Source: an uncultured Poribacteria bacterium
GTDB taxonomy: Bacteria > Poribacteria > WGA-4E > WGA-3G
Direction: 5' to 3'
DNA length: 64,000 bases
Assembly: GCA_951828385.1 (NCBI GenBank)
Contig: OX639973.1
Location: 62,001-126,000 of the forward strand
Each line of letters opens with the position of its first letter. Position 1 is the first letter of the stretch. The translations under genes were made by a program, and so were the position numbers. The notes under the pieces are model-generated. The model was given only the letters and a program-made list of their open reading frames with translations, had not been told where the DNA came from and made no database searches. Shown piece by piece: positions 14,180 to 39,512 of this stretch.

Positions 14180-15832
14180 ATGGTATCTCGACGGCGTTAT
14201 CAATTAAAACGTCATCATAAATTTGAACAGGATGAGCGCAAATATGTGGCGGACCTTGAAACGGGGGCCCTTGTTCAGGTAAACGACGTGGAGTGGGAGA
14301 TTCTGGCGCGTTATGAATCTCAGACCCCATATCAGATCGTGAAGCGGTTGAAAAGCAAATACAAACTAACCGCTATCTTTGAAGGGATTGAACGTTTGGA
14401 ACGGCTTGGTGAGCAAGGTATCCTTTTAAGACCAGTCGCTAAACCCGCAGCACCGATGACTGCAAACCGGAATCAGACAGATCGGATGCCGAAGTTGTTG
14501 GTCCCGTTCCATTTTACGCAGGAGAAGTCGGCGTTGGGCTATCTCACAGGACTCAACCGCTACCAGTTTTTGCGGCACCTCTCGGAATTCGCCGAGTTGG
14601 AAACATTGGCTTTTTCTGAGATAGGTGGCGAAAAACAGGAGATACCAGATTTCGACGAGGTTCGGGTTCGGAAGATAGATGTCCCGAAAAGCAACGCTTT
14701 GGCAGCACCGTGGTATGCTCTGGATGGGTATGATGGTATCTTGCTCCTTTCGCAATTCTTGACGGACGATTTGTTATATTACCAGGTGCCTGATGTCCCG
14801 ATTGTTCACTGCATAGATGGCGCCCAGCAGCTGCGGCATATTTTATTAAAAACACTCTTGACGCTCAGTGCGTTCCAGCGTTCAAAAGATACGTTGGTTG
14901 TCAAGGCATCGTGGATGAAGGAGTGGCTCGCTGAGTTGGGGGCACCGGTGGAAAATGTGCACGTGATTCCCGATCGGATAGATGTTGTTGCACCGATCGG
15001 CGATAAGACGTTGGCGAAACAACACACTGCGGCTATCTTTGAGAAGCCGATGTTCACAAAACAACCGGTTGTCGGGTTGATTTCTGGATTTGAACCGAGG
15101 CGCGGCGCGAAGTGGATATCTGCGTTTGCGCGTGCCAATCGGCATCTCGCTATTTTTGTCTACGATGCGATGTTGGCGCAGCACTATCAGCATCCGCCGG
15201 AGAATGTGGTCGTTTTCAATGCGGATGATGAGGAGACTCGGTCGGTTTTATCAATATTTTTCCAAGCGTTAGATCTGGTGTGTTTCCCTGCGATGCCAGG
15301 GACACCGCTCTCAATCGTCTTGGAGGCGATGGCGTTTGGTGCGCCGTGTGTCGCGATGTCGAAGTATGGGATGCCGCCGGAAGTCGCAGGTGCAGGCGTT
15401 ACCATAGAGGCGGACTGGGATCACTTTGGCAACTTCCGTGTGCCGATGCCGGAGTTATCAAGAACAATACACAAATGGTTGCAGCCGTCTAAGGTGAGTG
15501 GATTGTGTGACAATTTTACGGAACGGATCGTTCAGCGACATACGCGAAAGGACGCTGCACAGACGATTGTCCAACTGTTCGCGGAAGGTCTTCAGCGGGA
15601 AACAGACGATTTTGAGGAAATCGAGCGAACGGTGTTCCCACCGATTTTCTGTCGTCGGTATGAACCGGAGACAGGCATGCTCAAATCGAGTGTATATCGG
15701 TTAGGAATCAATAGAAGCGATGATGATTTTGAGACGGCTTTGGCGGAGGTATTGGAAACCGAAGGGCATACGGCTGCTGAAGTGGCATCGGTTTTCAATC
15801 ATTTCCAGCAAGAGCGTTCTGTATGTATGTGA
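14180..15832 (+). CDS. RRE-GT4 with degenerate E-x7-E (cassette A, second)
   Basis: 550 aa. N-terminal PqqD-like domain (FEQDERKYVADLETGALVQV, IVKRLKSKYKL, LGEQGILLRP), then a GT-B domain (VVGLISGFEPRRGAKW, VLEAMAFGAPCVAMSKYGMPPEVAG). The first Glu of E-x7-E is Gly (PGTPLSIVLEAM). It may be inactive, alter donor use, or serve as a non-catalytic partner of the preceding enzyme. It ends 95 nt before the first precursor peptide gene, which suits a joint role. Confidence 0.85.
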   Translation: MVSRRRYQLKRHHKFEQDERKYVADLETGALVQVNDVEWEILARYESQTPYQIVKRLKSKYKLTAIFEGIERLERLGEQGILLRPVAKPAAPMTANRNQTDRMPKLLVPFHFTQEKSALGYLTGLNRYQFLRHLSEFAELETLAFSEIGGEKQEIPDFDEVRVRKIDVPKSNALAAPWYALDGYDGILLLSQFLTDDLLYYQVPDVPIVHCIDGAQQLRHILLKTLLTLSAFQRSKDTLVVKASWMKEWLAELGAPVENVHVIPDRIDVVAPIGDKTLAKQHTAAIFEKPMFTKQPVVGLISGFEPRRGAKWISAFARANRHLAIFVYDAMLAQHYQHPPENVVVFNADDEETRSVLSIFFQALDLVCFPAMPGTPLSIVLEAMAFGAPCVAMSKYGMPPEVAGAGVTIEADWDHFGNFRVPMPELSRTIHKWLQPSKVSGLCDNFTERIVQRHTRKDAAQTIVQLFAEGLQRETDDFEEIERTVFPPIFCRRYEPETGMLKSSVYRLGINRSDDDFETALAEVLETEGHTAAEVASVFNHFQQERSVCM

Positions 15833-15927: not shown

Positions 15928-16188
15928 ATGAAAAAGAATCTCCGCGGTAAAATCCGCGAATATATCCAGTCTGAAGAGGGGAAGGTGGGCGTGAAATCGC
16001 CACTGACGCTCGGTGTAGCGGCAGGGGGGCTTCTGTTGGCACATGTGATTGGGACATCTGAAGCAGAACCGGGGTGGTGCTATACTGAGGGAGCTACATG
16101 CGGAGTCTATGGCTCTGCCACTTATATCTGCGGTGGTCCTTGGATTTCGATTGACGGTACCTGGACCGGGACATGTATACCGCAATAA
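15928..16188 (+). CDS. Cys-rich secreted precursor peptide 1 (4 Cys)
   Basis: 86 aa. ATG after GGGAGGAGGTGAATTTG, a very strong ribosome site. Layout: charged N-terminus (about 1-17), conserved SEEG-KVG-VKSPLTLG (15-30), hydrophobic stretch to about 42 (VAAGGLLLAHVI), SEA|E resembling a signal-peptidase site, then a core with four Cys plus Gly, Trp and aromatic residues. The same N-terminal pattern recurs in three other small genes of the island. The G-then-hydrophobic arrangement resembles Flp-type prepilin leaders, and a prepilin-type peptidase gene is close by. I read it as a RiPP-like precursor; the mature product is unknown. Confidence 0.8.
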   Translation: MKKNLRGKIREYIQSEEGKVGVKSPLTLGVAAGGLLLAHVIGTSEAEPGWCYTEGATCGVYGSATYICGGPWISIDGTWTGTCIPQ

Positions 16189-16459: not shown

Positions 16460-17356
16460 ATGTTATATGAAGATTTTGAGCAGGCGTTTGAAGCGCGTTT
16501 GCAGACACGCGCAGACGCGTATGTGAACGCCGTGGAATACCATCGCGTGCAGTTTGGACAGACGATTGAGTATCTGTTGCGATCTATCTTGGAACAGACG
16601 GATCATCTGATAAAACAGTCTGATGCGGGTTGGGCGCGCACCGAAGACGTTGTGACTGATATTCTCTATTGTGCGAATATGGATGTCGAGCAACTCTTGG
16701 CACTTAAAACTCCGAACGAACTGATGGCGGATAGGGATTTTGAAGCGGTCAAAACGAAACTCTACGAAACGAAGTGTTATCCTGTTAGTGAACATTTGAA
16801 CTATATCTCATTCCCGCCGGCTCTGGAGCGGAAGGCGTTTATTGGCAAGCATTTTGATTGTTTTAAAGCGGATTCATATTTCTGTGATCTGGGTTTCGGT
16901 CCTGGGGTGCTCACTGCGTTTATTTTGGAGCAAAAGGCTTCGTGGCGCGCTGCGGGTGTTGATATTAGCAAGGATTGCCTTCATCACGCGCAGCGACTTT
17001 TAGAGAAAAAAGAGGTTTTGGAAAGGAGCGAATTGTCGGTTGCGGATGTTCGTAGCCTCCCGTATCCTGATGACACTTTTGATGTGGTTGTCGCGGTTGA
17101 GGTGCTTGAGCATATCCCGGACCCCGAAGCGGGTTTAGCGGAAGCGATGCGAGTGCTGAAACCGGGCGGATACGCGATGACTGCACTCCCAGTGCGACTG
17201 CCGCTGTGGATGCATCTCTATGATTTTGATACGCCTGACGAAGTCTTAGCACTCTACGAAAAAGTTGGGCTTGAAGTGGTTGATTTTGAGAAGAAGGAAT
17301 TTCGACTTCAAGGGGGCTCCTTCGTGGATACGTTCGCCTTGAGCGTGAATCCTTAA
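16460..17356 (+). CDS. Class I SAM-dependent methyltransferase
   Basis: 298 aa. Rossmann methyltransferase domain from about 120: motif I FCDLGFGPGVLTAF, acidic AAGVDISKDC, LSVADVRSLPYPDDTFDVVV, EVLEHIPDPEAGLAEAMRVLKPGGYAM. The N-terminal 120 residues are helical and not recognised. It sits directly after precursor 1 and 23 nt before the A24 peptidase gene, so it may methylate the peptide or its sugar. A fragment of a second copy survives at 41886-42032 in the decayed cassette, which shows the gene belongs to the cassette type. Confidence 0.88.
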   Translation: MLYEDFEQAFEARLQTRADAYVNAVEYHRVQFGQTIEYLLRSILEQTDHLIKQSDAGWARTEDVVTDILYCANMDVEQLLALKTPNELMADRDFEAVKTKLYETKCYPVSEHLNYISFPPALERKAFIGKHFDCFKADSYFCDLGFGPGVLTAFILEQKASWRAAGVDISKDCLHHAQRLLEKKEVLERSELSVADVRSLPYPDDTFDVVVAVEVLEHIPDPEAGLAEAMRVLKPGGYAMTALPVRLPLWMHLYDFDTPDEVLALYEKVGLEVVDFEKKEFRLQGGSFVDTFALSVNP

Positions 17357-17379
17357 GAATGAAAGGTTTTTGTGATACG

Positions 17380-18516
17380 ATGTCGGTTTATGAATACTTT
17401 CTTGTATTTTTAGCACTTATTTTTTGCGGTTATGCAAGTTGGACGGACCTGAAGACGCAGAAGATCCGCAACATTTGTTCGCTCGGTCTTCTTTATGGCG
17501 GAACGTTGAGCCAATTGATGGCGTGGTATCTCGGTACAACAACGCCGCTGTATATCTTAGGGCTTTTCTTCGGGAGCGGTATGATTGCGTTTGGATTCTA
17601 TTGGTTCGGTATCTTCTCACCGGGGGATTCCAAACTCTTTTGGGGACTGTGTCTGATTTTCCCGCTATCGCTTTTTAGGAACTTGAGCGGCAGCCTGAGT
17701 TTCCCGCCGTTGATTCTCGCGCTGAATATCGTTATTCCGTATTCGATGGGGCTGTTGGGGTATCTACTTTACAAATTTGCGTTGATGCCGAACAAGTTGG
17801 TGCTGCTTCGCGGTTTCGTGATGTCAAATTTTCAGAAAACAGCACTCTTTGAAAAACTTTTCAATCTGCTTTTCTTCATCGGTATCGCGACCGCGCTGAC
17901 ATCCGCGTTGGAGCTGTTCGGATGGCAACCTGACCGATTTGTGAGTCTACTTTTGGTCTTGGCGGTGTTTGCTTTAGTGCAGAAGTTATTATCGCTTATT
18001 CCGAAAACGCCGGTGTATTATGCGATTGTCGGGTTCGCGTGTGTTTGGCTTTCGGTTCGGTCGGCACCATCTGTGCCGGTATTTCTTTCCGGTTTAGCGT
18101 TTTTCTTGGGGTTGTATCTTGTTGTTTTTGTTGTTGCTAAGCAGTTGGTCCTCGGTTTAGCGAGCATAGCATTAGATAATGCCGTTGATGTGGAGGGTCT
18201 GCAAGTCGGTATGATTCCAGCGGAGCAGATTCTTCGGATAGCGGAGACGGACGGGAGTGTCCGCTATGAGAAAAAACAGGTTGCGTTTTCAAGTGGTCAG
18301 GACGACAACGTCATCGTTTCACCGGATCCCGCGGGGCTTGATGCCGAGGAGATCGCGCACTTGCAAGACCTCGCGGCAACAGGTGCACTTGTGGAATTTG
18401 AGAATCAGATAAAGATTCAACCCTCTATTCGCTTCGCACCAGTGATTTCTATCGGCGCACTTCTCACGGTTCTCTGCCAAGGCCCCTTTTATCTGAAGCT
18501 GATGCAGCTATTTTAA
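17380..18516 (+). CDS. A24 prepilin-peptidase-like membrane aspartic protease with C-terminal extension (cassette A)
   Basis: 378 aa, multi-pass membrane protein. I chose the ATG at 17380 rather than 17359 because it gives the same N-terminal length as the sister at 34507. The two catalytic Asp are D23 in ASWTDLKTQKI and D83 in FSPGDSKLFWG, the A24 x-D and GD motifs. After more membrane segments comes a soluble module (GLQVGMIPAEQIL ... ALLTVLCQGPF), reminiscent of C-terminal domains in some archaeal A24 peptidases. No pilin or secretion-ATPase genes are near. Its likely substrates are the precursor peptides, whose leaders look prepilin-like. Confidence 0.85.
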   Translation: MSVYEYFLVFLALIFCGYASWTDLKTQKIRNICSLGLLYGGTLSQLMAWYLGTTTPLYILGLFFGSGMIAFGFYWFGIFSPGDSKLFWGLCLIFPLSLFRNLSGSLSFPPLILALNIVIPYSMGLLGYLLYKFALMPNKLVLLRGFVMSNFQKTALFEKLFNLLFFIGIATALTSALELFGWQPDRFVSLLLVLAVFALVQKLLSLIPKTPVYYAIVGFACVWLSVRSAPSVPVFLSGLAFFLGLYLVVFVVAKQLVLGLASIALDNAVDVEGLQVGMIPAEQILRIAETDGSVRYEKKQVAFSSGQDDNVIVSPDPAGLDAEEIAHLQDLAATGALVEFENQIKIQPSIRFAPVISIGALLTVLCQGPFYLKLMQLF

Positions 18517-18694: not shown

Positions 18695-20557
18695 ATGAAA
18701 CGTGCAATTTTAGTGCTAATAATTTTGACGCTGGGGGTGACATTACCACCACTTTATTCACAATAGGCAGAATCTCAAAGGCTCAAACAGATAGAAATAG
18801 TAAAACAACAGGCACGCCCGGTTTCCGGGGATCGGTTAGAAAAGGTGCTGTCAGCACTTGAAAGCGGTGCGCCACCTTCTGTGGTGGTCTTGTATACAGG
18901 TGGCACGAAAAGCCATCTGGAGCCGTGCGGGTGTTATCAGGAACAGTCGGGTGGATTGCCGAGACGTGCTTATGTTGTAGAGCAATTTCGGAAGCATGGA
19001 TTCCCGACGCTTTTAGTAGATGCTGGGAACATCTTTGATGGAAAAGAGGAAATTGATGCGAAGCGGTGTGAAGTTAACCTGAAGGCAATGTCCAAAATGA
19101 AATACGACGCGGTCGCACTCAGTGAATCCGATCTCACCTATGATGATGCCTATCTGCGTCGGCAGCATGCTGTTGTGACTTTTCCGTTCTTGGCACCACG
19201 CGCGGGGCACGCCGATTTCACGGAGCCGTTTGTCATTGAACAGGTGGGACAGCACACTGTCGCACTTGTTACGGGTAAAACATCCGAAGCAGTGGTATCA
19301 CAGACAGATGTTGTTGTAGTTTTAGGGGAACCTGAGGACCCTGAACATATTGATGGTGTCATCTGTCCAGACGATATTCAGACAACAGTGTCTGAAGACG
19401 GACCGCTTTATGTCGGTTGTCCACCTGAAGGCAAGACGTTGGGTGTGTTGGCATTTTGGGTGGATGCAAGCGGAAAACTCGCACGCCACTACACAGCGGA
19501 ATTGGCGTTGACTGGGGATGTCGGTGAGTCTGAACCGATCCGTCAACTCCTGACAGATTTCTATCAAAGTGTTGCTGCGGAGAACAGCACGCAAAGTGCT
19601 GCTCTTTTCACTGAACAACTGTTAGAGCAACAACAGGAAAACGGGTACGCCTCAGCGGCAGCATGCCAACAATGCCATGAGCAGGAATATCTCCAATGGT
19701 CAGCAACGCGCCACGCCTTCGCCTACCAAACACTCCTGAAAAAGGAGCGATACTTTGACACAGGGTGTGTCTCCTGCCATACCACCGGGTTTGGGTATCC
19801 CACAGGTTTCCAGATAGGAGACCAAAACGCAACGCTCGAAGGGGTGCAGTGTGAGACGTGCCACGGTCCCGGCAAGCAACACGTTGGCAACCCGAAAAAG
19901 AGTAATATTCGCAATGGTGCCGATACCTCGCTCTGTTTGCAATGCCACGATACAAAACATTCGCCAGGGTTTGCGGAGGTGGTGGCACTCCATAGCAAGG
20001 ATGTTGATCATAGTCGCCAGCCGCTGAACTTGGAGGAACTCTTAGCGTCGCGCATCGCACGGATGGGCAAGCCGACGCTGGAACTCTTTGTGATGAGTTA
20101 TTGCCCGTTCGGTGTTCAGGCGGAAGAAAATATTATTCCAATCGTGAAAAAGTTTGGCGATAAGATTGATTTCAAACTCCAGTTTATTGCAGAAGAGAAG
20201 GAAGAGTCTTCAACACAAAACATAACGCCGTTTACGAGTCTCCACGGCTACCCTGAAGTGGCAGAAAACATCCGGCAGTTGCTGGTCGCACAAGAATATC
20301 CGGATCGGTATCTTGATTATATTTTGTGCCGCGGTAAGAAACTGGATAAAAGTTGGGAGGATTGCGCGCAGAAACTCGGTATCGATGTGGCGAAGATTCA
20401 AGCGTTGTTTGACGCTCCGGAGGCAGCGCAGCGGTTCCGGGAAAATATTGCGCGTGCCGAGGCGTTGGGGATTAAGGCATCTCCGACGATTTTGGTGGAT
20501 AACCACAAATTTGGAGCGAATCAACTGCTACGGGCGAGTGGAACGCCCTGCCAATAG
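18695..20557 (+). pseudogene. Metallophosphoesterase-like/tetraheme cytochrome/thioredoxin fusion (cassette A) with in-frame TAG
   Basis: ATG 18695 opens a membrane anchor (MKRAILVLIILTLGVTLPPL) like that of the intact sister at 26690, but TAG at 18764 replaces the Trp of the sister's YQRWSEA. The rest is open to 20557 (GTG 18845 is the first start, 570 aa). Domains: UshA/SoxB-like (LYTGGTKSHLEPCGC, SGGLPRRA), four heme sites (CQQCH, CVSCH, CETCH, CLQCH), and a C-terminal thioredoxin-like domain (FVMSYCPFGVQAEENI ... SPTILVD). Without the anchor, export for heme attachment is unlikely, so it is either inactive or needs readthrough. All downstream motifs are intact, so the change looks recent. 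Confidence 0.75.
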
Positions 20558-20732: not shown

Positions 20733-21008
20733 ATGAAGCATAACGTCCGTAGTAAGATCAGTGACTTCCTCAAATCTGAGGAGGGACATGTTGGTGCTAA
20801 ATCACCGTTGGCATTGGGCGTGGCAAGTGCCAGCTTGTTGTTGACTCAGATGATGGTTACGCCATCCATGCAGGCAGATTTGGAGTGTTATCCTTTAGCG
20901 GGTGACTGTGCAGAAGATGAGTATTGCTATGCTTGGTGCGACGGTACATGGGATTTAGGGCGCTGTTCCGGTACAGCACACAGTTACTGCAGACCGCTTG
21001 ATTCTTGA
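20733..21008 (+). CDS. Cys-rich secreted precursor peptide 2 (6 Cys)
   Basis: 91 aa. Same plan as precursor 1: MKHNVRSKISDFLKSEEG, HVGAKSPLALG, a hydrophobic stretch (ASASLLLTQMMV), MQA|D as a possible signal-peptidase site, and a core of about 42 residues with six Cys, several acidic and aromatic residues. The leader is close to precursor 1 while the core is quite different. This is the mark of modular RiPP precursors: conserved leader, variable core. It lies between the redox fusion and the sugar-nucleotide genes. Confidence 0.8.
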   Translation: MKHNVRSKISDFLKSEEGHVGAKSPLALGVASASLLLTQMMVTPSMQADLECYPLAGDCAEDEYCYAWCDGTWDLGRCSGTAHSYCRPLDS

Positions 21009-23449: not shown

Positions 23450-23632
23450 AGGGAAACAATCAGATGATTTGAACTTTAAGGATTTTAGTTTGCTATTGTG
23501 TATGGTATACTCTTAACGAGATAACAAGCAAAGAAAAATCTGTTTTATACCGATACAGGGCAAGTTACTTCAAGGAATAGCATCTTATTTTAAATCATTT
23601 AGATCTGTTCGTTGATGATGGAGAATCTGATC

Positions 23633-26563
23633 ATGGAAAATGATGCACAATTGATCTACAAGGTTTTAGCAGGCGACGACGAAGCATTCACTGCTTTAGT
23701 CCGAAAGCATCAGCAAAGCGTTCACGCACTTGCTTGGCGGAGGATCAATGACTTTCAATTTGCCGAAGAAATTATGCAGGATACCTTCCTTCAAGCATAC
23801 AAGAAACTCTCAACGCTCAAGAACCCCAGTCAGTTTTCTGGGTGGCTTTATGTCATTACGAATCGACTTTGTAATAAGTGGCTCCTAAAGAACAAATCCG
23901 CAGTAAAATCGCTGGAGGATGTCTCCATGGTAGAAATAGAGAACATATCTTATGAACGTTATGTATCGGAGCAAAACGAAGAGGAAGCTCGCACGCATCG
24001 CCACAAACTCGTTAGAAAACTTCTGGACAAACTGCCAGAAAGCGAACGCACCGTCATGACGCTCTACTATCTCGGCGAAATGACCACAAAGGAGATTAGT
24101 AAATTTTTAGGTGTATCGGTCAACACGATTACGAGTCGGCTCCAGCGGGCTCGAAAGCGTTTACAACAGGAGGAGGAGCTCTTGGTTCAAGAGACACTTG
24201 GAGGTGTCCAGCTATCTAATAGTCTCACAGAGAACATCGCCCGAAAAGTTTCTGATGTCAAGTTGACACCTTCTCCCACAGGGAAACCCTTACTACCGTG
24301 GCTGGCTTTTGGTGCAGCCGCGGTTCTGGTGACAGTCCTACTGTTGGGTTTGAGCAATCAATACCTCGTCCGCTTCCAGCAGCCGTACAGTTTTGAGGCA
24401 GAATCTGAACAGACGATTGAAATTATTGACGCACCTGTCGTTCTTAATAGTGAAGCGAAACCCGCTGTCCAAAATCAGGCGGGGCGGGCTGCCGCGAGCA
24501 ATAAAAATAGCGGTGATGGTGTGCAGGTTTCTAAGTCCGTTTTAGATTCTAATGCACAGGATACGTCGGTCAGATTTTCGGAGTCTCGGTGGATGCCGAC
24601 ATCTGGACCGGGAGGTGGTTCCGTTTTTGATGTATTTGCTACGTCTGAAGGGACAGTTTACGCTTTTTCACAGGTAGGAGTCTACAAGTTAGCTGCGAAT
24701 ACAACGGTATGGGTGCCAGTTGCCGTTAATGTTCCGACCGGAACGTTGTGGGTCCCTATGACGGAGCATGCGGGGGTGCTTTACCTTGTCTCTAACGATG
24801 CAGTGTTAGCCTCACCCGATGATGGCGAGACATGGCGCGTATTTTGTGCTCGCCCGGAGGGAAGTGCTATTGGATTTGTTATCGCGGGTGAGGCGCAGAA
24901 AGCCGGTGTTACGATGTATCTTGCCCTTAAAAATAAAGGTGTGTTCCGTTCTACGAGTGCCGGCGAGCAGTGGGTGCTTCTTAACGATGGATTGGTAGGT
25001 AGAACGATTTCCAGGATGGCTACAATTGGAGACACAGTGTTTGTTGGCACAGACAGCGGTCTCTACCGCCTTAATGCGGGTGTTTGGGAACGGTTGCTTA
25101 TGGATGTGTCTGGATCTATTTACGCCTTAGTGGTTTCTGGGGATAGCCTCTATGTCAGCACAGGTCCTGGTTTTCGGACGTTGCAACAGATTGAGTCAAA
25201 ACCTGGGAGAATGGTGCGGGCAATATATAATAACAATTCGAGTTTGAGCAGGATTTTCCACTCCGCTGACTTCGGAGCATCTTGGACTGAGATAACGCCT
25301 ACGGATGGTTCTCGCTTGATAATAGCACCGTTTGGTATGAGTTTGTTGGTCTCTGGTAAGACGATTTTAGCACAAGCCGCCACCCAGTTCCGCTCAAGGG
25401 ATGGCGGACAAACTTGGGTTGACCTTGGATCTGAGATGAATTCGTCTATATTAGGTGCTTTTCCGTCTGTAGCAGTGAACGAGAATACATTTTACAAAGC
25501 CAGTCCGTCTGGTGTTCATCAGACAATGGATGGTGGCGAATCGTGGCATCTGTTTATGGACGGGATGGTGGGAACGGGGACGCTGGATTTGGTTTCGGTC
25601 AATAGCAGACTTTATGCGCATACCGAGGGAGGCATCGTCCAGTCGACAGATGGTGGGGAATCGTGGAGTACCGTTTCGGTTAAGATTAGTGAAGTGAATC
25701 CCAAACCGATCGAAAGGAACCGATCTCACGCTAATCTCACTCATCGTTCAGGCTTAACGACTGCTGGTAATATTCTTTATGTAATTTCACCGGAAAAGGA
25801 CGATTTGCGCTTTTTTCGTTTGTCAACTGACAGTAATGCCCTTATTCCGGTTCCAAGGGTTCCTGCTTTTGAAGTGGATGTTCTGTTTACAAATAACGAG
25901 AAAGCAGAACAGACTCACTTATCTGAGAGACTTGTGCATACCTTACACCGTGAAGAACATGAAAGGATTGGGGCGTTTGCTGTCAGTGGTGAGACGTTTT
26001 ACACGGAGTATCAGCGGAAATTGTTCAAATGGCAACCCGGCGATGCAGCGTGGAAAGATACAGGGTTGATTGATACCGGTGAGCAGCCTGATAGTGATTT
26101 GAAATGTGGGTTCCGATTAGCGGTTTCAGGAGAGACTGTCTACGTCGGGAAACGGGATGGTAGGTTGTTCCAATCGCTGGATGGCGGTAACAGTTGGAAA
26201 GATATTACGCCGAACCTTCCACTTCGGTTTACCTGTTTTAAGGAGATTGCCTTTGCGGGTTCGACGGTTTATATTGCGACAGACGCGGGTGTCTTAGCCT
26301 CGCGAACCGGGGGACACTGGCGCGTGATCGCTGATGATATCGTTATAGACAGGTTTGCTGTGGACGGTTCGACGGTTTATGGTGTGGGTGATAAAGGTGT
26401 CTATCGCTTGGATGTTGATGACAAGTGGAAACAGATTTCGCCGGTGGTTCCGGGTAAAGTGCTATCGCTCGTCGTTGATCGCGATAGACTTTATGTTGCG
26501 ACTGAGCGACGTGGGATATTTCATATCTCGCTTGAGGAAAATAAATACTTGGTAACTCATTAA
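23633..26563 (+). CDS. Membrane-anchored ECF sigma factor fused to extracytoplasmic Asp-box propeller
   Basis: 976 aa from the ATG at 23633 (MENDAQLIYKVLAGDDEAF), preceded by GGAG; ATGs 15-18 nt upstream are possible. Sigma region 2 spans about 10-80 (AEEIMQDTFLQAYKKL). Region 4 spans about 133-178 (LPESERTVMTLYYLGEMTTKEISKFLGVSVNTITSRLQRAR). A membrane helix at about 220-241 follows, then some 700 residues with at least seven Asp-box/BNR motifs of S-x-D-x-G-x-T/S-W type (DDGETW, DGGQTW, DGGESW, DGGNSW). The expected topology is sigma inside, propeller outside, so it may sense an external ligand directly without an anti-sigma factor. How the sigma domain reaches DNA, by release or in place, is unknown. 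Confidence 0.88.
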   Translation: MENDAQLIYKVLAGDDEAFTALVRKHQQSVHALAWRRINDFQFAEEIMQDTFLQAYKKLSTLKNPSQFSGWLYVITNRLCNKWLLKNKSAVKSLEDVSMVEIENISYERYVSEQNEEEARTHRHKLVRKLLDKLPESERTVMTLYYLGEMTTKEISKFLGVSVNTITSRLQRARKRLQQEEELLVQETLGGVQLSNSLTENIARKVSDVKLTPSPTGKPLLPWLAFGAAAVLVTVLLLGLSNQYLVRFQQPYSFEAESEQTIEIIDAPVVLNSEAKPAVQNQAGRAAASNKNSGDGVQVSKSVLDSNAQDTSVRFSESRWMPTSGPGGGSVFDVFATSEGTVYAFSQVGVYKLAANTTVWVPVAVNVPTGTLWVPMTEHAGVLYLVSNDAVLASPDDGETWRVFCARPEGSAIGFVIAGEAQKAGVTMYLALKNKGVFRSTSAGEQWVLLNDGLVGRTISRMATIGDTVFVGTDSGLYRLNAGVWERLLMDVSGSIYALVVSGDSLYVSTGPGFRTLQQIESKPGRMVRAIYNNNSSLSRIFHSADFGASWTEITPTDGSRLIIAPFGMSLLVSGKTILAQAATQFRSRDGGQTWVDLGSEMNSSILGAFPSVAVNENTFYKASPSGVHQTMDGGESWHLFMDGMVGTGTLDLVSVNSRLYAHTEGGIVQSTDGGESWSTVSVKISEVNPKPIERNRSHANLTHRSGLTTAGNILYVISPEKDDLRFFRLSTDSNALIPVPRVPAFEVDVLFTNNEKAEQTHLSERLVHTLHREEHERIGAFAVSGETFYTEYQRKLFKWQPGDAAWKDTGLIDTGEQPDSDLKCGFRLAVSGETVYVGKRDGRLFQSLDGGNSWKDITPNLPLRFTCFKEIAFAGSTVYIATDAGVLASRTGGHWRVIADDIVIDRFAVDGSTVYGVGDKGVYRLDVDDKWKQISPVVPGKVLSLVVDRDRLYVATERRGIFHISLEENKYLVTH

Positions 26564-26689: not shown

Positions 26690-28699
26690 GTGAAAAAATA
26701 CATATTGCTGCTGCTTTTCTTAACCGCTATCGTTGTTGGTCCGTTTGCGTATCAGCGGTGGAGTGAAGCAAAAAGGTTACGGCACATCAGAGAAACGAAA
26801 CAATATGCTGCACAGATTCGTGCTACACCTTTGAAGGATTTTCTGCAACAACTGGATCAGACTTCGCCAGACCAAACAGTGCTGGTACTTTTCACCGGCA
26901 ACACACAGGCACATCTTGAACCGTGCGGTTGCTTCATCGGTCAGTCGGGCGGTTTACCAAGACGCGCGACTGCGATTTCGGGTATCAGGGACAAAGGCTT
27001 CTCGCCGCTGTTGGTTGATCTCGGTGGGGTGCTTCCAGTTGAACTGAAACAGATGAAGTCAGATGTGCTTGAGCCGATTGCCTTTAAGACAGACGATGAG
27101 ATTCACGCATTAGACCAGCTGCGCGTCCAAACGACTTTTACGGCGATAGAGATGATGGGGTATGATGTGCTTGTTTCTTCTCAACCAGGGGCGAATCTCG
27201 GTGAGAATTCCGTTGAGCAGGTCTTGACAAACTACCGTTTTCAGTTGTTGGCTGCGCCTTCAAAAGCATCTCCTCCAGCACAGCGTCCCTACTTGATAAA
27301 AACGGTTGGTAATAAGCGAGTTGCTCTGATTGAACTTTCTTTGCTTGAAACTGATCAAACAACATCTATTCCGAAAAAACTTGATTCGCTCCTGTCTGAA
27401 GTTCAGGCGCACGCGGATATTGTTATAATATCAAGTCATCTTCAGCCAGAGGTGAATAAGAGTCTTGCCAAGAAATATCCCAACATCTCAGCAATTATGA
27501 GTCGTGACACTGGCGAAACTGAACGGGTCGGCAACGTTCTATTGACGTATTGCCATCCGCATGGGAAAACACTCGGCGCATTGACGATAACCGATGCAGC
27601 TGGAGGGAATTCAGCCGCGGTTGAGCACATTGCGCTGACTGAAGAAGTTGGCGACGATCCGAATGTAAGGCAGTTATTGAACGATTTTTATGGGCAGGTC
27701 GCCAGCGATCCACAATTGCAAGTTGCAAGTCATCGGCTATTTTCCTCAGAAGCACTTGAGCAGGATAGCAATAATAGTTATATCGGTTCTCAGGCATGCC
27801 AAGAGTGCCATCGAAAGGAATTTGACCAGTGGTCGCACTCTTCCCATGCTACTGCTTTTAATACGTTGCAGATCATCGGACGAGAATATTATTCAAAATG
27901 CGTTTCTTGTCACGTTACTGGATTTGGCTATTCAAGCGGATACGAGATTGGTAACCGAGACAGAGCACATCTCGCAGAAGTAGGGTGCGAAACGTGTCAC
28001 GGACCCGGTAAACAGCATACTTACACGCCGCTTGCTACAAATATTCGTGGGAAAGTGGAAACGTCAATGTGTATGGAATGCCACCAGCCGGAACATTCGC
28101 CCGGATTTCAGGAGATTGTTGCGCAGTTGATGCCTGAAGTTGACCACAGTCGCACGGATCCGAGTCTGAAGCAGATTTTGGAACAACGGGGGCGCGGTCC
28201 GGTCAAACCGCAGGTTGAGTTGTTCGTCATGTCTTACTGCTCTTATGGTGTTGATGCGGAGAAGGAGTTGCTGCCGTTCTTTTCCAAGTATATTGATGAA
28301 ATTGATTTTAAGTTGCGGTTTATTGTCAGTAAGAAAGATCCATCAGCAGATGAAACCGATGCAGAACCTGAGTTTACCAGTTTGCACGGAGAGACGGAGT
28401 TGATTGAGAATCTGCGTCAGATGGTGGTTGCTGAACTTTATCCAGATCAGTTCTTTGATTATCTACTTTGTCGTGCTGATCATCTGAAGGAAGCGTGGAC
28501 GTTGTGTGCCCAGAAGGTAGGGCTGGATGTAACGAAGATCGCATCAGCAGTAGATACCCCACAAGCCAGGCGCAGATTCTTGCAGGAAGTCGAACGGACA
28601 AAAGAATTGGAAATACGGGGTTCTCCGACTTTGGTAATTGATGGTCGAGTTATTGGCGGTCAACTTTGGCGTGGAAGGGTGAGGGAAACCTGTCAATAG
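26690..28699 (+). CDS. Metallophosphoesterase-like/tetraheme cytochrome c/thioredoxin fusion (cassette B)
   Basis: 669 aa. The GTG at 26690 follows AGAAGGAGACTTGT; the longer frame upstream runs through the promoter and is not used. N-terminal anchor KKYILLLLFLTAIVVGPFAY places the rest outside the membrane. About 65-350 resembles UshA/SoxB-type phosphoesterases (LFTGNTQAHLEPCGC, SGGLPRRA), though most metal ligands look degenerate. About 395-510 has four heme motifs (CQECH, CVSCH, CETCH, CMECH). About 525-669 is thioredoxin-like (FVMSYCSYGVDAEKELL, RGSPTLVIDG), with a single Cys at the active-site position. It sits beside glycosyltransferases and Cys-rich peptides, so a role in oxidising or reducing peptide thiols is plausible. 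Confidence 0.88.
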   Translation: MKKYILLLLFLTAIVVGPFAYQRWSEAKRLRHIRETKQYAAQIRATPLKDFLQQLDQTSPDQTVLVLFTGNTQAHLEPCGCFIGQSGGLPRRATAISGIRDKGFSPLLVDLGGVLPVELKQMKSDVLEPIAFKTDDEIHALDQLRVQTTFTAIEMMGYDVLVSSQPGANLGENSVEQVLTNYRFQLLAAPSKASPPAQRPYLIKTVGNKRVALIELSLLETDQTTSIPKKLDSLLSEVQAHADIVIISSHLQPEVNKSLAKKYPNISAIMSRDTGETERVGNVLLTYCHPHGKTLGALTITDAAGGNSAAVEHIALTEEVGDDPNVRQLLNDFYGQVASDPQLQVASHRLFSSEALEQDSNNSYIGSQACQECHRKEFDQWSHSSHATAFNTLQIIGREYYSKCVSCHVTGFGYSSGYEIGNRDRAHLAEVGCETCHGPGKQHTYTPLATNIRGKVETSMCMECHQPEHSPGFQEIVAQLMPEVDHSRTDPSLKQILEQRGRGPVKPQVELFVMSYCSYGVDAEKELLPFFSKYIDEIDFKLRFIVSKKDPSADETDAEPEFTSLHGETELIENLRQMVVAELYPDQFFDYLLCRADHLKEAWTLCAQKVGLDVTKIASAVDTPQARRRFLQEVERTKELEIRGSPTLVIDGRVIGGQLWRGRVRETCQ

Positions 28700-28742: not shown

Positions 28743-30437
28743 ATGTTACAATTGCCCAAAACGCTGCAGAACATCCATAAATTCCGACACGGTGATCGGA
28801 TGTACGTCACGGATGTCGTGCAGTGTAAAGTATTAGAAATTGATGCGATAACTTGGGATATTCTTGAGTTATGTGCATCTTCTACGAGTGATGAAATCAT
28901 TGATCGGCTTGGTGAGAAATACAGCCAAGACGAAGTTACTGAGGCACTGGAATCTCTGGCTGAGGTTGAACAGAGTGGACTTCTTTTTGCCAACCTCGAT
29001 GGGCACATCTCCACGACAACAGTGGAGGACTGTAGACTGAGGATTTTGGTTGCCCAAGGAAATCCATACGTTGATGACCTCACACTTGTCGCTGGAGGCG
29101 TAAGAGTTGCACACACGCATCTGATTAAAGCGTTGTTGCCTTATGCGGATGTGGAGGTCATGAATGATTCGGATAAACTGTTCGATGATGGTGTACAAGG
29201 CATCGCTTTTCGCTTTGAAGATAGAGCCTCTCTGCTGAAGTTGATTCGGCGAAAATATGATGGTGTGTTATTGCAAAAACACACAGACACTTCATTTCTT
29301 TCGCTGCTCAGATATATTGATGCCCCGTTTGTTGTTCCAATCTATTCAATTCGGGGTCACAATGGGGACTCTATCAATGCGGTTTTGCGCTGGTATTCTG
29401 GGATGCGGGCGTTTGATGCTTTTCTGACACCGACAGAATCTGTAAAAGATTTCTATCTGTCCTTCGCAGCTGATGCCAGTACGTTTGAGACGATCTTGTT
29501 GGGCGTTGACCTTGATCACTTCAAGCCGATGGAGAAACACGCTGCGAAGCACGAAGTCGCGAAGATGCTGGATAAACCTGAACTTGTTGATTCATTGACT
29601 GTAGGATTTCTGTCGCGTTTTCAACCCGAAAAAGGGGCTGGCATTTACATAAAAATAGCGGAACTTCTCCCTGATGTCTGTTTTCTGGTGACGGCTCCGA
29701 CCCTTAATTTCTATGAGCATCAACGATTCCCACCAAACCTGATCTATCTTTCTCAGCAACCGCGAGATCGATTGCCCTATATCTTCAATGCTTTTGATGT
29801 CTATTGTTTACCCTCAATGGTGGGTGAAGAAACGTTTGGACTCGCTGTCTTGGAAGCAATGGCTTGCGGCATCCCGCCTGTTGTGCCGCGATTGGATGGT
29901 CTTCCTGAAGTGGTTGGGGACGCTGGCGTTATCGTGCCTGCTTCAGAATATCGCGATGAGATCGGCAGCTTCGCTGGCACTGTTTGTCCCTTTGCGATGT
30001 CAGATGCAATCGATGCACTCTTGAAGGATAAAGATAGGCGGTTAAAACTCGGTGAGAAAGCAGCACAAAGAGCACGCAATTTTACATGGGATGCAACGGC
30101 AAGGCATCTGTTAACGCTGCTTGAAAAACAGGCGAAAATTCAGAGGTTAGCAACTCGGCACCGACGGGAATTTCCAGTATCGTTCGCTTCCTATCTTGAC
30201 AGAAGTCGGGGGGGGATTGGATATAAGGCGATTCTGAGCAACGTCACAAATTTGAAAGAACGACCGCTCATGTTCGATGGATATGTGCAAACGGTTGAGG
30301 AAGGGCTTGCGCTAAGCCTGCTCAATAAGGGGCATGGTGCACATGAAGTGGAAGCGGTGCTTCAACATTTCTGTGGCGAGACGAAAGCGGAAAGCGTCCT
30401 TGAAAAAGTTTTGGGTTTTCAGGAGGCGACCTCCTAA
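28743..30437 (+). CDS. RRE-GT4 glycosyltransferase (cassette B, first)
   Basis: 564 aa. PqqD-like N-terminus (FRHGDRMYVTDVVQCKVLEI, IIDRLGEKYSQDEV, EQSGLLFANL). GT-B domain with LLGVDLDHFKPM, VGFLSRFQPEKGAGIY, LIYLSQQPRDRLPYIFNAFDVYCLPS and an intact E-x7-E in GEETFGLAVLEAMACG. Close to the cassette A first enzyme in length and order. It lies 43 nt after the redox fusion and is followed by a degenerate partner, the same pairing as in cassette A. Confidence 0.87.
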   Translation: MLQLPKTLQNIHKFRHGDRMYVTDVVQCKVLEIDAITWDILELCASSTSDEIIDRLGEKYSQDEVTEALESLAEVEQSGLLFANLDGHISTTTVEDCRLRILVAQGNPYVDDLTLVAGGVRVAHTHLIKALLPYADVEVMNDSDKLFDDGVQGIAFRFEDRASLLKLIRRKYDGVLLQKHTDTSFLSLLRYIDAPFVVPIYSIRGHNGDSINAVLRWYSGMRAFDAFLTPTESVKDFYLSFAADASTFETILLGVDLDHFKPMEKHAAKHEVAKMLDKPELVDSLTVGFLSRFQPEKGAGIYIKIAELLPDVCFLVTAPTLNFYEHQRFPPNLIYLSQQPRDRLPYIFNAFDVYCLPSMVGEETFGLAVLEAMACGIPPVVPRLDGLPEVVGDAGVIVPASEYRDEIGSFAGTVCPFAMSDAIDALLKDKDRRLKLGEKAAQRARNFTWDATARHLLTLLEKQAKIQRLATRHRREFPVSFASYLDRSRGGIGYKAILSNVTNLKERPLMFDGYVQTVEEGLALSLLNKGHGAHEVEAVLQHFCGETKAESVLEKVLGFQEATS

Positions 30438-30455: not shown

Positions 30456-32108
30456 ATGATTCAATTTCCTCAGCAACTTCACGCAATTCATAAGTTTCGC
30501 CGCAACGACGAGATTTATGCCGCCGATTTAGAAACGGGACACACGTTTCCTATTAACGAAATTATTGAAGAAATTTTGGCGCGCTGCCTCCATCTAAGCA
30601 CCGACCAGATTGTTGAAGAACTGGCGGCAAGGTACAATCGGTTTGAGATTCTTGAAAATCTGAGTTTTCTATCTAAACTTGCGGATATGGGACTTTTGTT
30701 TTCTCCGGTTCCATATCAGGAAGATACGGCTTCGACTGCCGATAGACTCAAAATTTTCGTGACATCAAGTTTTTTGGAGCAGAGAAACACAACGAGTTTC
30801 TTGCTAAATGCGGCGAACTATCGTTTATTGACGACATTGGTCAATCATGCTGAAGTCTATCTCGGATTTCCAGAGGTAAATGAGAATCAAGAGGAGATTG
30901 AGAAAGGGTTTGATGTTGATGGGATTAAACCGGTCTTTTTTCCAAACCGGAATCGAACGGATTCCGTCATCAAATTTATCCCAGAAGATTGTGACGGTAT
31001 TCTGTCGTTATCCCCGATTCCCTTGGGTGAACAAATCTTTTTCAAGTCTCTCTCTATTCCGTTTTTCATCCGAGTATGTAACGAAACACTGACAACCGAC
31101 CAAGGCATTAACAGAACGCTTGAGAAATATATTGCCCTAAGAGGATATGATGCGCTTATTTGTGATGCCTCTTGGACTGCCTCGTTCTTTTCGCAGTTGA
31201 TTTCTGATACTCAGATGAACGGCTTTCATTGTATCCCTTATGGGGTTGATGTATCTGCCTTTCGACCGATGAACAAAGCGAACGCCAAGCAACAGTTGGC
31301 ACAAGCCGTTGGCAATCCGAAGATTGTAGACAAGTTATTGGTGGGTGTGGTTCCAGGGGTGAACGTTAGAAATGCAACTGCGTTGTTGCGGCAGCTTTCT
31401 GCTGCGAACCCTGATGTGCATTGGCTTGTGATTCATCCATCTTTAGAACAGCATTTCAGTAGGAGCGAAACTATCAGTTCCTTTAGCATCCGTGACTTTC
31501 AAGACATGGAAGCCAGTCCTTTCGTATTTAACGCCCTTGATATGGCGGTATTCCCAGCCGTTTTGGGAGCGTCAAGTCCCTATCTGCTCGAATTGGCGGC
31601 ATGCGGGATTCCGCTCATTGTCTGGGGATATAATGAACCGAGCGAAGTGGCGGGGGCGTGTCGATTTTTTCATGTTGAACCTTCTCCCTTTGATTCACTT
31701 CATCCGCCGATTGCGTCTATCTCGGAAGCGATTCAGGAGTTGGCGGAGAACCCCGGTGAAAGAAAGAAACTCGGTATGAAAGCAAGGGAGATAGCAGTAT
31801 CTTACACGTGGGATGCGACTGTCAGACAACTTCTCAATTGCATTAGCGACTGTCAGAAAAAACGGGTGGTCAATCACACACCGACGAATCCATTATTGTT
31901 TACGAAACATTACAATCGTGCGCAAGGGGGGCTTAAGTTCCAAGCACTTGACTTACTTGATGGTTCCCTGATATATGAGATCGAAAAGGCGATTGCGATG
32001 ACGCTTTCGGACAGGCATACGCATAAGGAGATGGAAGCACTACTCTTACATCTTTGCCAAGACGCAGAGCGAGTCAAACGAATTTTGGCAGGATTAGATG
32101 AAACGTAA
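30456..32108 (+). CDS. RRE-GT4 with degenerate E-x7-E (cassette B, second)
   Basis: 550 aa, exactly the length of the cassette A second enzyme. PqqD-like N-terminus (FRRNDEIYAADLETGHTFPI, IVEELAARYNRFEI, LADMGLLFSP). GT-B region VGVVPGVNVRNAT, LGASSPYLLELAACGIPLIVWGYNEPSEVAG. The first Glu of E-x7-E is Gly here too (LGASSPYLLEL). The recurrence of the same change in both cassettes suggests the partner has a distinct conserved role and is not just decaying. Confidence 0.85.
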   Translation: MIQFPQQLHAIHKFRRNDEIYAADLETGHTFPINEIIEEILARCLHLSTDQIVEELAARYNRFEILENLSFLSKLADMGLLFSPVPYQEDTASTADRLKIFVTSSFLEQRNTTSFLLNAANYRLLTTLVNHAEVYLGFPEVNENQEEIEKGFDVDGIKPVFFPNRNRTDSVIKFIPEDCDGILSLSPIPLGEQIFFKSLSIPFFIRVCNETLTTDQGINRTLEKYIALRGYDALICDASWTASFFSQLISDTQMNGFHCIPYGVDVSAFRPMNKANAKQQLAQAVGNPKIVDKLLVGVVPGVNVRNATALLRQLSAANPDVHWLVIHPSLEQHFSRSETISSFSIRDFQDMEASPFVFNALDMAVFPAVLGASSPYLLELAACGIPLIVWGYNEPSEVAGACRFFHVEPSPFDSLHPPIASISEAIQELAENPGERKKLGMKAREIAVSYTWDATVRQLLNCISDCQKKRVVNHTPTNPLLFTKHYNRAQGGLKFQALDLLDGSLIYEIEKAIAMTLSDRHTHKEMEALLLHLCQDAERVKRILAGLDET

Positions 32109-32152
32109 TTGTGAACGTGCAAAAAACGTATAACCGTAGAAGGAGAGTTCTC

Positions 32153-33076
32153 ATGTTCATTAACTTTAAATTGCTACTCAATGTGATATTATTGTTCAGT
32201 TTAGGTCTACCAGTATTTTCTTTCGAGCCTTCGGGTGGTGTTTTGATGCTCGATGGTGAGGATGACTATGCGATCCTGCCGTTTGCGGAACATGGCTATA
32301 TTTTCTCCAAAAATACCAATGAATTTACGGCTGAGATATGGTTCTATCCGAAATCTGGGCCGGAGCCAACGGAGGCACATATTATTCTGAGTCAGCAAAT
32401 TGTTTTCGGATTGACGGGAAATGAGGATAGGTGTCGGGGTAGGCTCGGTAAGAAGGATCAAGTTTGTTCATACGGCTTGGCATATCTTGAAGGTGCAGAA
32501 GTGTTCGGTGTCACAGGCATTAATGCTGTCATCAAGACGGATCAATGGAACTATCTGGCAGTTATTTTCAAGCACGGCACGTTTCATTTGGTGTACAACG
32601 ATCAAATTGTTCGCGGGGGGAAAAAGGACTTTATGAACGTCGTGGCTTCGGATCTGCGTGTCCCTAACAGGTTCAAAGATTTCTTTGTAGGCGGCTATGC
32701 TGAAGATCGGTTGGCAATGGTGAGGGGACAAGTGTTCCGAAAGACTTACTTTCATGGTGCGATTGATGCGATAAGGTTTTCAAGTATCGCTCGGTATGAT
32801 TTACCTGCCGAGCGGGGGACCTCGCCGTTTGATCCGCCACATCGCTTTTTCCCCGATGCACACACGTTAGCATTCTGGGATTTTAATGACGAGGAAGGTG
32901 TAGATCATTTTCAAGATGAATCGGGGAATGGAAAAACGTTAATCGGCATGAATGGTGCCATTACGATTGGTGGAACGGGTGTTAATCTTGAGCGTGAGCC
33001 TGAAGATGGATTTGAAATTCGCCCCGACACTTCTTTAACAACGACATGGGGTCAAATGAAGTCAGAAGCGTTTTGA
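32153..33076 (+). CDS. Secreted LamG/concanavalin-like domain protein
   Basis: 307 aa from ATG 32153 after GAAGGAGAG. Signal peptide INFKLLLNVILLFSLGLPVFSF. Then a jelly-roll domain of the LamG type (GGVLMLDGEDDYAILP, FTAEIWFYPKSG, DQWNYLAVIFKHGTFHLVYND, YFHGAIDAIRFSSIARY, LAFWDFNDEEG). Such domains bind carbohydrate or protein. Between the glycosyltransferases and the precursors, it might bind the glycosylated product outside the cell, but nothing in the sequence proves this. Confidence 0.82.
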   Translation: MFINFKLLLNVILLFSLGLPVFSFEPSGGVLMLDGEDDYAILPFAEHGYIFSKNTNEFTAEIWFYPKSGPEPTEAHIILSQQIVFGLTGNEDRCRGRLGKKDQVCSYGLAYLEGAEVFGVTGINAVIKTDQWNYLAVIFKHGTFHLVYNDQIVRGGKKDFMNVVASDLRVPNRFKDFFVGGYAEDRLAMVRGQVFRKTYFHGAIDAIRFSSIARYDLPAERGTSPFDPPHRFFPDAHTLAFWDFNDEEGVDHFQDESGNGKTLIGMNGAITIGGTGVNLEREPEDGFEIRPDTSLTTTWGQMKSEAF

Positions 33077-33264: not shown

Positions 33265-33882
33265 TGGTTGGTAGAACGTGAATTTGTACTGCCGGCGGTT
33301 GTCGTGAACTTCAAAAAGGGAGGAGGTGATATTCATGCAAAGACACATTTCGCCGATTGCCAAACAACGCATCAGCGACTTCTTCACGCAAGAAGATGGC
33401 AATGTCGGGCGGAAAAATGCGCTGACGGCAGGCACCATTCTTAGCGGTGTGATGCTCGCTGCGACACTGTTCGGTCCAGAAACCGCCCACGCTGATAGAC
33501 AAGAGTGTGAAGAAGAATTGTGGGGGAGATGGTGCGGCAGTGAAGATGGCGCGTGCTGTAGTCTTGATCTGAGTCATCGCTGCTGCTCAAAGTGGGACAA
33601 CGTGGACATGGAATGGGACTATTTCTGCACTTATGGCGACTGTAAATGATAGAGGATTCTACCATGTTTTCAAACGCGACTCAACTTTTATCTTCGACGC
33701 TGCATTAGGGAGGAGAGCGTTTCTTTTTCTTTCCTAATGGAAGAAACCGGGTAAAGGTATAAAGCGATGTATTTGCATTTATTAGATTGCTTGAGTCTAT
33801 AGGGTTTACGCAAAACGCCCTATATTTCTTAATTGGGTTGCGAAAAACCGGGTGCAAGGTTGTATCGTTCGCGTCTCTGCTC
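33206..33882. repeat. Inverted repeat (19/20) bracketing precursor 3
   Basis: GAGCAGAGACGCGAGCGATA at 33206-33225 matches the complement of 33863-33882 with one mismatch. The arms lie in the leaders of precursors 3 and 4 and enclose the complete precursor 3 gene. Confidence 0.6.
33335..33649 (+). CDS. Cys-rich secreted precursor peptide 3 (8 Cys)
   Basis: 104 aa. ATG after GGGAGGAGGTGATATTC. Leader MQRHISPIAKQRISDFFTQE then DGNVGRKNALTAG, hydrophobic ILSGVMLAATLF, ETAHA|D as a signal-peptidase-like site. The core has eight Cys including two CC pairs, acidic and Trp-rich. The leader is nearly identical to precursor 4 in DNA and protein, but the cores differ, so the pair arose by tandem duplication with fast core divergence. 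Confidence 0.8.
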   Translation: MQRHISPIAKQRISDFFTQEDGNVGRKNALTAGTILSGVMLAATLFGPETAHADRQECEEELWGRWCGSEDGACCSLDLSHRCCSKWDNVDMEWDYFCTYGDCK

Positions 33883-33937: not shown

Positions 33938-34225
33938 ATGCAAAGACACATTTCGCCGATTGCCAAGCAACGCATCAGCGGCTTTTTCACGCAAAAAGAT
34001 GGCAACGTCGGGCGGAAAAACGCTCTGACAGCAGGCACCATTCTCAGTGGTATGATGCTCGCTGCTGTGCTGTTCACTCCAGAGACTGCTAACGCTGGTC
34101 CTGGTGACTGTGGTCATAGTTACTTCTGGTGTCGTGATCAATGGAGCGGGCAATGTTGTACGGAGGGGTGGAATTGCTGCTCAGATGGTCATGGCAATTA
34201 TGACTGTGTTCCGGGAGCTTGCTGA
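33938..34225 (+). CDS. Cys-rich secreted precursor peptide 4 (8 Cys)
   Basis: 95 aa. ATG after GAAGGAGGTGATATTC, the same ribosome site as precursor 3. Leader QRHISPIAKQRISGFFTQKD, GNVGRKNALTAG, hydrophobic ILSGMMLAAVLF, ETANA|G. The core has eight Cys (two CC pairs again) with Gly, Trp and polar residues. Cys spacing differs from precursor 3 outside the CC pairs. The gap 33650-33937 contains hairpins (CATTAGG/CCTAATG; TATAGGG/CCCTATA followed by TTTCTT) that may limit read-through. Confidence 0.8.
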   Translation: MQRHISPIAKQRISGFFTQKDGNVGRKNALTAGTILSGMMLAAVLFTPETANAGPGDCGHSYFWCRDQWSGQCCTEGWNCCSDGHGNYDCVPGAC

Positions 34226-34460: not shown

Positions 34461-34506
34461 TTCAAGCAACTTGTTAGACGATTGTACAATCATTACGGAA
34501 GGGAAG

Positions 34507-35640
34507 ATGTTAAATTATCAAAACTTACTACTTGGTACTTTGGGGATTTTCTGTCTCTACGCTACATATACAGATATTCGGGAAAGAAAAATAACCAACC
34601 TCTGTGCGTATGGACTGATCTACGCGGGTATCCTGAGCCAGATTATATTTATCCTCTCAGGTAACACAACAGTGTTGAAAAGCCTGATAACGGTGACCGG
34701 TGGTTTCGGGATTGTTTTTGCCCTCTACTGGTTCGGGATATTCGCTGCTGGGGACGCAAAACTATTTTGGGGGATATGTCTTCTCGTTCCGCCGGATCTA
34801 TTTTCTCAAGGGAATGCCTTGGCTCAGTTTGTGCCAGCGTCTCTGGCGATAAACACCTTTGTTCCATATTTTTTGATTTTTACAATTTATCTGCTTACGA
34901 CTTCAACAGGCGGTCAGAAGTTAAGAGCGTTGACACAGATCTATCAGATGGACGATTTCTTTAAAAAAGTTCTGGATATGCTTTTCCGTCTCATTTTACT
35001 CTTAGGTTTGGGACAAGTTGTTAATATTTTATTTAATTGGCAAGAGATCCGAGTTGATTCGTTGTATTTTTCGATACTCGTTTTATCTCTTTTCTTCGCG
35101 ATTAATTATCTTGTGAACAAGTTTAGCTTGGAAAAATGGCGGAATTATATAATCTGCCCAGTGCTATTTGAAATTATGATCTTGAGTACACCTTTTACCT
35201 TGAGAGCGTGGTCTCAGACATATCTAATGTTTTTGAAACTGTATCTTATCTACATCGCGGTTTTCCTTTTTTTAAGGCTCTATATTGATAATCTGGATAG
35301 TATGGTCCTGGATAAAGAGATAGATATCGCGGACTTAGAGGAGGGTATGGTTTCCGCAGAACAGATTGTTAAGGAAGACAGAGATGGCGAAGTTGCTTAT
35401 CAGAAGACGGGATTTTCTCTACCGAATGTCCTGAACGAAAATGTAGTCCTGACCACCCTCTCTCATGCGCTATCGAAAGAGAAGATCGCTGAACTAAAGC
35501 AGTTCGCACAAGATGGATGCTTTCAGGAATTTGAAAACAAGATTAAGATTCAGCAATCGCTCTGTTTTGCACCGATTATCTTGCTGGGTGTTGTTTTAAC
35601 GGTTTTGTGTCAGGGACCCTTTTTTCTGGTGTTTCAGTAA
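34507..35640 (+). CDS. A24 prepilin-peptidase-like membrane aspartic protease with C-terminal extension (cassette B)
   Basis: 377 aa from the ATG at 34507 (MLNYQNLLLGTLGIFCLYATYTD). Catalytic Asp at D23 (ATYTDIRERKITN) and D83 (FAAGDAKLFWG), the same positions as in the cassette A sister. C-terminal module IADLEEGMVSAEQIV ... VVLTVLCQGPFF matches the sister's. No pilus assembly genes are near; it follows precursors 3 and 4 directly. It probably cleaves their leaders at the inner membrane. Confidence 0.85.
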   Translation: MLNYQNLLLGTLGIFCLYATYTDIRERKITNLCAYGLIYAGILSQIIFILSGNTTVLKSLITVTGGFGIVFALYWFGIFAAGDAKLFWGICLLVPPDLFSQGNALAQFVPASLAINTFVPYFLIFTIYLLTTSTGGQKLRALTQIYQMDDFFKKVLDMLFRLILLLGLGQVVNILFNWQEIRVDSLYFSILVLSLFFAINYLVNKFSLEKWRNYIICPVLFEIMILSTPFTLRAWSQTYLMFLKLYLIYIAVFLFLRLYIDNLDSMVLDKEIDIADLEEGMVSAEQIVKEDRDGEVAYQKTGFSLPNVLNENVVLTTLSHALSKEKIAELKQFAQDGCFQEFENKIKIQQSLCFAPIILLGVVLTVLCQGPFFLVFQ

Positions 35641-39508: not shown

Positions 39509-39512
39509 AAAT

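Follow-up and report, generated by a model that had tools for sequence, protein, structure and literature searches.

What task would bring together, in one anchored polypeptide, a nucleotidase-like domain, a tetraheme cytochrome and a thioredoxin-fold domain, and place the gene for it beside genes for small Cys-rich peptides? The locus belongs to an uncultured member of the Poribacteria (WGA-4E; WGA-3G), a phylum best known for its sponge symbionts, and was analysed within a window of 64,000 nt (assembly GCA_951828385.1, contig OX639973.1, positions 62,001-126,000, forward strand). The answer that we favour, and rate as somewhat better than an even prospect, is that the protein is a thiol-disulfide oxidoreductase, anchored in the membrane and acting outside the cytoplasm, that specifically serves secreted Cys-rich peptides and is wired to respiration through hemes. 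The protein and its parts, in window positions, are as follows:

26690..28699, + strand: UshA-like/tetraheme cytochrome/GILT-DsbA-like protein (type A), GTG start (translation, profile scans, fold comparison)
26693..26752, + strand: predicted N-terminal hydrophobic signal anchor, residues 27-46 in numbering from 26615 (sequence, alignment conservation, helix in the model)
26870..27742, + strand: UshA/5'-nucleotidase/SoxB-like domain, metal ligands not conserved (profile, fold comparison, alignment)
26921..26932, + strand: PCGC motif (Cys104, Cys106), the Cys counterpart of the CxU of NF041198 (NCBIfam match, literature motif, alignment)
27779..28114, + strand: tetraheme cytochrome C554 domain, CxxCH at 27797-27811, 27899-27913, 27986-28000 and 28070-28084 (Pfam, alignment)
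28193..28699, + strand: GILT/DsbA-like thioredoxin-fold domain (profile scan, model, structure comparison)
28238..28249, + strand: CSYG (CxxG), presumed active-site motif with Cys542 (homologue alignment)
28469, 28505 and 28691, + strand: further near-invariant Cys619, Cys631 and Cys693, respectively (homologue alignment)

The GTG at 26690 opens an N-terminus, (V/M)KKYILL..., that is conserved in the homologue alignment, and the stop ends at 28699. An exact-pattern scan of public genomes, which finds close relatives, returned six related loci, all from Candidatus Poribacteria, and the two closest relatives of the protein share 86 and 81% identity with it. Conservation of cysteines and metal ligands was read from an alignment of 61 homologues.

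A profile match (E=1.5e-10) shows the UshA-like domain to be a homologue of 5'-nucleotidase/YfkN, and its fold is that of SoxB and the 5'-nucleotidases, which match it at Z 16-17 in structure comparison. Phosphoesterase activity is unlikely, judging from the alignment, because the metal-ligand columns vary among the 61 homologues, and a working phosphoesterase was rejected as a candidate on the loss of these ligands. Cys104 and Cys106 of the PCGC motif are invariant (61/61), and the domain that carries them is probably redox-active. NF041198 (UshA_like_PCGU) is the top NCBIfam match of this protein and of its paralogue in the window, at 210.1 and 207.1 bits, both below the equivalog cut-off of 275 bits; the shorter Poribacteria homologues, which lack the thiol domain, exceed that cut-off. 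The marks of NF041198 are present here, namely an UshA-like domain followed by a C554 heme domain with its four CxxCH sites, and a PCG(U/C) redox motif, which reads PCGC where the family has CxU. In the accessible parts of two sources, UshA-like selenoproteins with a CxU motif appear in an earlier survey (PMC2398784) and the same motif is given for the UshA-like (seleno)protein family in a review (PMC13188914). Our protein differs from that family in its added GILT/DsbA-like domain, in its position next to Cys-rich peptides and in its lower score.

Outside the window, the same genome encodes two further UshA-like proteins (L100:8455-10593 and L123:7093-9264) that have no CxxCH; the hemes are replaced by a C-terminal region bearing a CxxC motif. 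A glutaredoxin match (PF00462, 1.8e-7) was obtained for the one member of this pair that was tested, and the hydrophobic C-terminal part of both, assessed by eye, is probably CcdA-like. These fusions suggest a part for UshA-like domains in thiol redox relays.

The central domain matches Cytochrome_C554 (PF13435) at 50.4 bits, against a gathering cut-off of 20.8, and its eight heme cysteines are invariant in 61/61 homologues; from the motifs, all four CxxCH sites are predicted to be heme-loaded. The structure model of the full protein has low confidence across the heme region, and the structural comparisons bear on the UshA-like and C-terminal domains, not on the heme part or on the RRE part of the glycosyltransferases described below. 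Confidence is good over most of the C-terminal thiol domain, which aligns with mouse GILT at Z 17.5 (rmsd 2.5, 155 residues) and with Staphylococcus aureus DsbA at Z 14.2. With both it shares the thioredoxin fold and an SPT motif, invariant in the alignment, at the presumed cis-Pro position; unlike them it has joined hemes and lacks the CxxC motif, nearly all homologues having CxxG and a few CxxA. Cys542 is invariant (61/61), and Cys619, Cys631 and Cys693 are kept in 60, 59 and 58 of the 61 homologues. Two longer variants of 967-995 aa (L081:8083-11067 and L084:7968-10868) have a CPFA motif and an extra C-terminal region, and leader-type peptides are absent near both.

The initial annotation, which had placed the gene exactly at 26690-28699, proposed metallophosphoesterase-like, tetraheme and thioredoxin-like domains in one anchored protein, and the profile scans, fold comparisons and alignment bear out this order, the anchoring, the four CxxCH sites and the thioredoxin-like fold. 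'Metallophosphoesterase-like' holds for the 5'-nucleotidase/SoxB fold and not for a hydrolase activity, and the 'single Cys' ascribed to the thiol domain is true of the CxxG motif and untrue of the domain, given its three other near-invariant cysteines.

The genes that surround the protein fall into cassettes, of which the first two contain:

12376..14091, + strand: first-cassette glycosyltransferase, of the family of 28743-30437 (profile scan, sequence comparison)
14180..15832, + strand: first-cassette second glycosyltransferase (profile scan)
15928..16188, + strand: first-cassette Cys-rich peptide precursor (translation, neighbourhood survey)
16460..17356, + strand: SAM methyltransferase (profile scan)
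17359..18516, + strand: A24-type peptidase (Peptidase_A24 19.1 bits, below the 26.5 cut-off; Arc_PepC 20.0, below 23.4; neighbourhood survey)
18695..20557, + strand: type B paralogue of the 26690-28699 protein (TAG at 18764-18766 in the signal anchor)
20733..21008, + strand: first-cassette Cys-rich peptide precursor (translation, neighbourhood survey)
23612..26563, + strand: ECF sigma factor joined to a BNR/Ycf48-like propeller (profile scan, neighbourhood survey)
28743..30437, + strand: GT4-type glycosyltransferase with a probable RRE/PqqD-like N-terminal domain (profile scans, model)
30456..32108, + strand: second PqqD-like/glycosyltransferase-like protein (profile scan)
32111..33076, + strand: LamG/concanavalin-like secreted protein (profile scan)
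33335..33649, + strand: Cys-rich peptide precursor, conserved leader and Cys-rich core (translation, neighbourhood survey)
33938..34225, + strand: Cys-rich peptide precursor (translation, neighbourhood survey)
34471..35640, + strand: A24 (prepilin/preflagellin-type) membrane peptidase (profile scan; catalytic motifs in the family)

A third cassette (38081-42032) is in decay, with a glycosyltransferase, an A24 fragment, a methyltransferase remnant and the following:

41741..41935, + strand: N-terminal remnant of a third copy of the 26690-28699 protein (translation, sequence comparison)

The type B paralogue is 42% identical to the 26690-28699 protein, and its amber TAG, which stands where relatives have Trp, is either a mutation or an assembly error. 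The earlier statement that the protein recurs 'in each cassette' is only partly correct, one copy being interrupted and another a remnant. The N-terminal part of the glycosyltransferases matches PqqD below cut-off in profile scans, its NCBIfam matches are ScfB-related and SCIFF maturases, and the order of strands and helices in its model fits the probable RRE. Homologues of the ECF-propeller protein, possibly a sensor and regulator in a single chain, occur within 10 kb of 38 of the 58 full-length loci.

Is the association with the peptides more than a local accident? Profile models were used to survey some 80 stretches of Poribacteria genomes. At least one peptide with a leader and a Cys-rich core was found within 10 kb of 52 of the 58 full-length homologues (104 peptides in all), and within the same distance an A24 peptidase was present at 51 and glycosyltransferases at 41-42. 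For five of the six full-length homologues without peptides, the contig ends on one side after no more than about 2.2 kb; the sixth, that of L081, is not so placed. Every peptide has the strand of its nearest homologue (116/116), and leader type follows protein subtype, long leaders occurring 39 times beside type A and never beside type B, short leaders 73 times beside B and four times beside A. Across 60 genomes, 23 have both protein and peptides, one the protein only, seven the peptides only and 29 neither (p=3e-9, uncorrected for relatedness; the loci are non-independent and p-values are indicative). The adjacency to Cys-rich peptides first noticed in the window is therefore a clustering far beyond chance. 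Homologues situated mainly in respiratory operons without Cys-rich peptides, which would have spoken against it, were looked for in the neighbourhoods and not found in Poribacteria, and an incidental respiratory operon was rejected as an explanation, since the gene neighbourhoods do not fit one. The protein is not strictly required, because one genome that is 96% complete (G023) has four peptide genes (loci L101 and L105), of which two, in L101, neighbour a pair of glycosyltransferases, and no homologue was found in it.

None of the eight homologues that lack the thiol domain has leader-type peptides, one of these loci (L092) being cut by a contig end. To treat these shorter homologues as a pure negative control proved too simple, as three of the eight, the UshA-cytochrome proteins of L093, L094 and L095, have a different Cys-rich secreted protein nearby, together with STT3 and a C39-DUF1573 protein.

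The Poribacteria loci yielded 122 distinct peptide cores with a median length of 39 residues, 14% Cys, a high Asp/Glu content and an even number of Cys in 105 of the 122. ExG is present in 120 of the 122 leaders, so that a conserved leader is followed by a variable core, as in RiPP precursors. By a simple rule, 83 leaders end in AxA, which is compatible with predicted cleavage by the A24 enzyme or by signal peptidase; the secreted peptides are probably glycosylated. The leaders at 33335 and 33938 bear a weak likeness to HxsA3 His-Xaa-Ser leaders (NF038309, 2e-5 at best). Sponge knottins were considered as the product and set aside, stryphnines being reported as of sponge origin and barrettides as sponge products in the accessible parts of the sources.

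The redox equipment of the host bears directly on what such a protein could do. Profile searches found DsbB in none of 16 genomes and VKOR in one of the 16, outside the host genus, so that neither was found in the genus itself; all DsbA-family matches in ten genomes of the genus are this three-domain protein or its fragments. Control genomes were positive for DsbA, DsbB and VKOR alike, and gave no match in a search for Erv/ALR, which is accordingly uninformative. A DsbD_TM protein is present in the same genome.

From these observations we infer the heme loading, substrate, order of carriers and electron direction of a mechanism in which Cys542 would exchange disulfides with peptide cysteines, electrons would be exchanged with the covalently joined tetraheme domain, the PCGC cysteines and Cys693 being their likeliest route, and the hemes would hand them on to the respiratory chain. 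An electron-passing role between the respiratory chain and peptide disulfides had already been proposed in the initial annotation and is still the likeliest. We consider net oxidation, that is, disulfide formation, likelier than reduction or isomerization, since searches of the host genus turned up neither DsbB nor VKOR, nor any further DsbA-family protein. Two facts weigh against parts of this proposal: the CxxG motif is unable to close an intramotif disulfide of the usual kind, and the UshA-like proteins joined to glutaredoxin and a CcdA-like region would point to electrons flowing in the reductive direction. Disulfides could also arise uncatalysed, by O2 or small-molecule oxidants.

The same facts lend some credit to a flow in the opposite direction, which we regard as unlikely without dismissing it. 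Electrons from the quinol pool would then travel through the hemes to the UshA-like domain and the thiol domain, and these would serve to undo or rearrange incorrect disulfides, or to hold cysteines in the reduced state for some other modification, such as S-glycosylation or thioether formation. A monothiol CxxG site, a nearest fold that is a thiol reductase (GILT) and the glutaredoxin-linked UshA-like domains of the same genome agree with it, as do data suggesting, in the accessible part of the report, that a thiol protein, CcmG, receives electrons from the periplasmic cytochrome c NapB and is reduced by it (PMC8782879). The NapB case serves the favoured reading too, as a precedent for electron transfer from cytochrome c to a thiol. 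However, with no disulfide-forming oxidase found in the genus, the oxidizing power would have to come from something, and the even Cys counts fit oxidized products.

A further alternative, which we judge improbable, is that of a terminal reductase found among the peptide genes by coincidence; the peptides would then be, for example, subunits of a scaffold, or products not modified by the cytochrome. Tetraheme C554 relatives function in respiratory nitrogen metabolism, and UshA-like and C554 proteins do exist without a thiol domain and without leader-type peptides, but the matching of subtypes, the same-strand clustering and the added thiol domain all point to the peptides. That the protein is a partner in heme or metal trafficking, keeping the cysteines of metal-binding peptides reduced or loading them, has very little probability, for despite the Cys and Asp/Glu content of the cores these are variable, share no noticed metal-site signature and have the even Cys counts that suit disulfides.

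The favoured reading, a heme-wired oxidoreductase for secreted peptides, has a partial counterpart in the glycocin clusters (sublancin, glycocin F, thermoglycocin), which, in the accessible part of the source, combine disulfide-bonded Cys-rich peptides with a glycosyltransferase and BdbAB-type oxidoreductases (PMC12457901). On domains and neighbourhood only, both have Cys-rich peptides, a glycosyltransferase and a candidate dedicated thiol-disulfide oxidoreductase beside the precursor; the Poribacteria cassettes differ in their GT4-type enzymes with a probable RRE, their A24 peptidase and their heme-wired oxidoreductase, and no C39-peptidase/ABC transporter (PCAT) was among the ORFs scanned between 12376 and 48703. 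RRE-glycosyltransferase fusions were reported by RRE-Finder (PMC7470986) and are alike in joining a probable RRE to the enzyme, but are named there, as far as the accessible text goes, without a heme-thiol oxidoreductase or Poribacteria. As with DsbA-DsbB/VKOR, extracytoplasmic disulfide chemistry would be coupled to respiration, with c-type hemes replacing the quinone-reducing membrane enzyme.

No description of the three-domain protein or its cluster was found in the open literature searched, nor was one of the large Poribacteria peptide set. The initial remark that no other maturation system has a multiheme cytochrome fused to a thiol protein stands to that extent, with the correction that the UshA-tetraheme part is already catalogued as NF041198; what is new is the added thiol domain and the setting, in which precursors lie beside probable RRE-glycosyltransferases, an A24 peptidase and a methyltransferase. 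We suggest only tentatively that bacteria without DsbB or VKOR may here have a disulfide route of their own, built of a thiol domain and a multiheme cytochrome with the UshA-like domain as redox carrier. If the favoured reading is true, respiration would be tied to peptide disulfide chemistry by a route that is neither DsbB nor VKOR, a large set of Poribacteria peptides (122 distinct cores here) would be opened up, and a testable role would be gained for the UshA-like selenoprotein family, for which a redox function has so far only been presumed.
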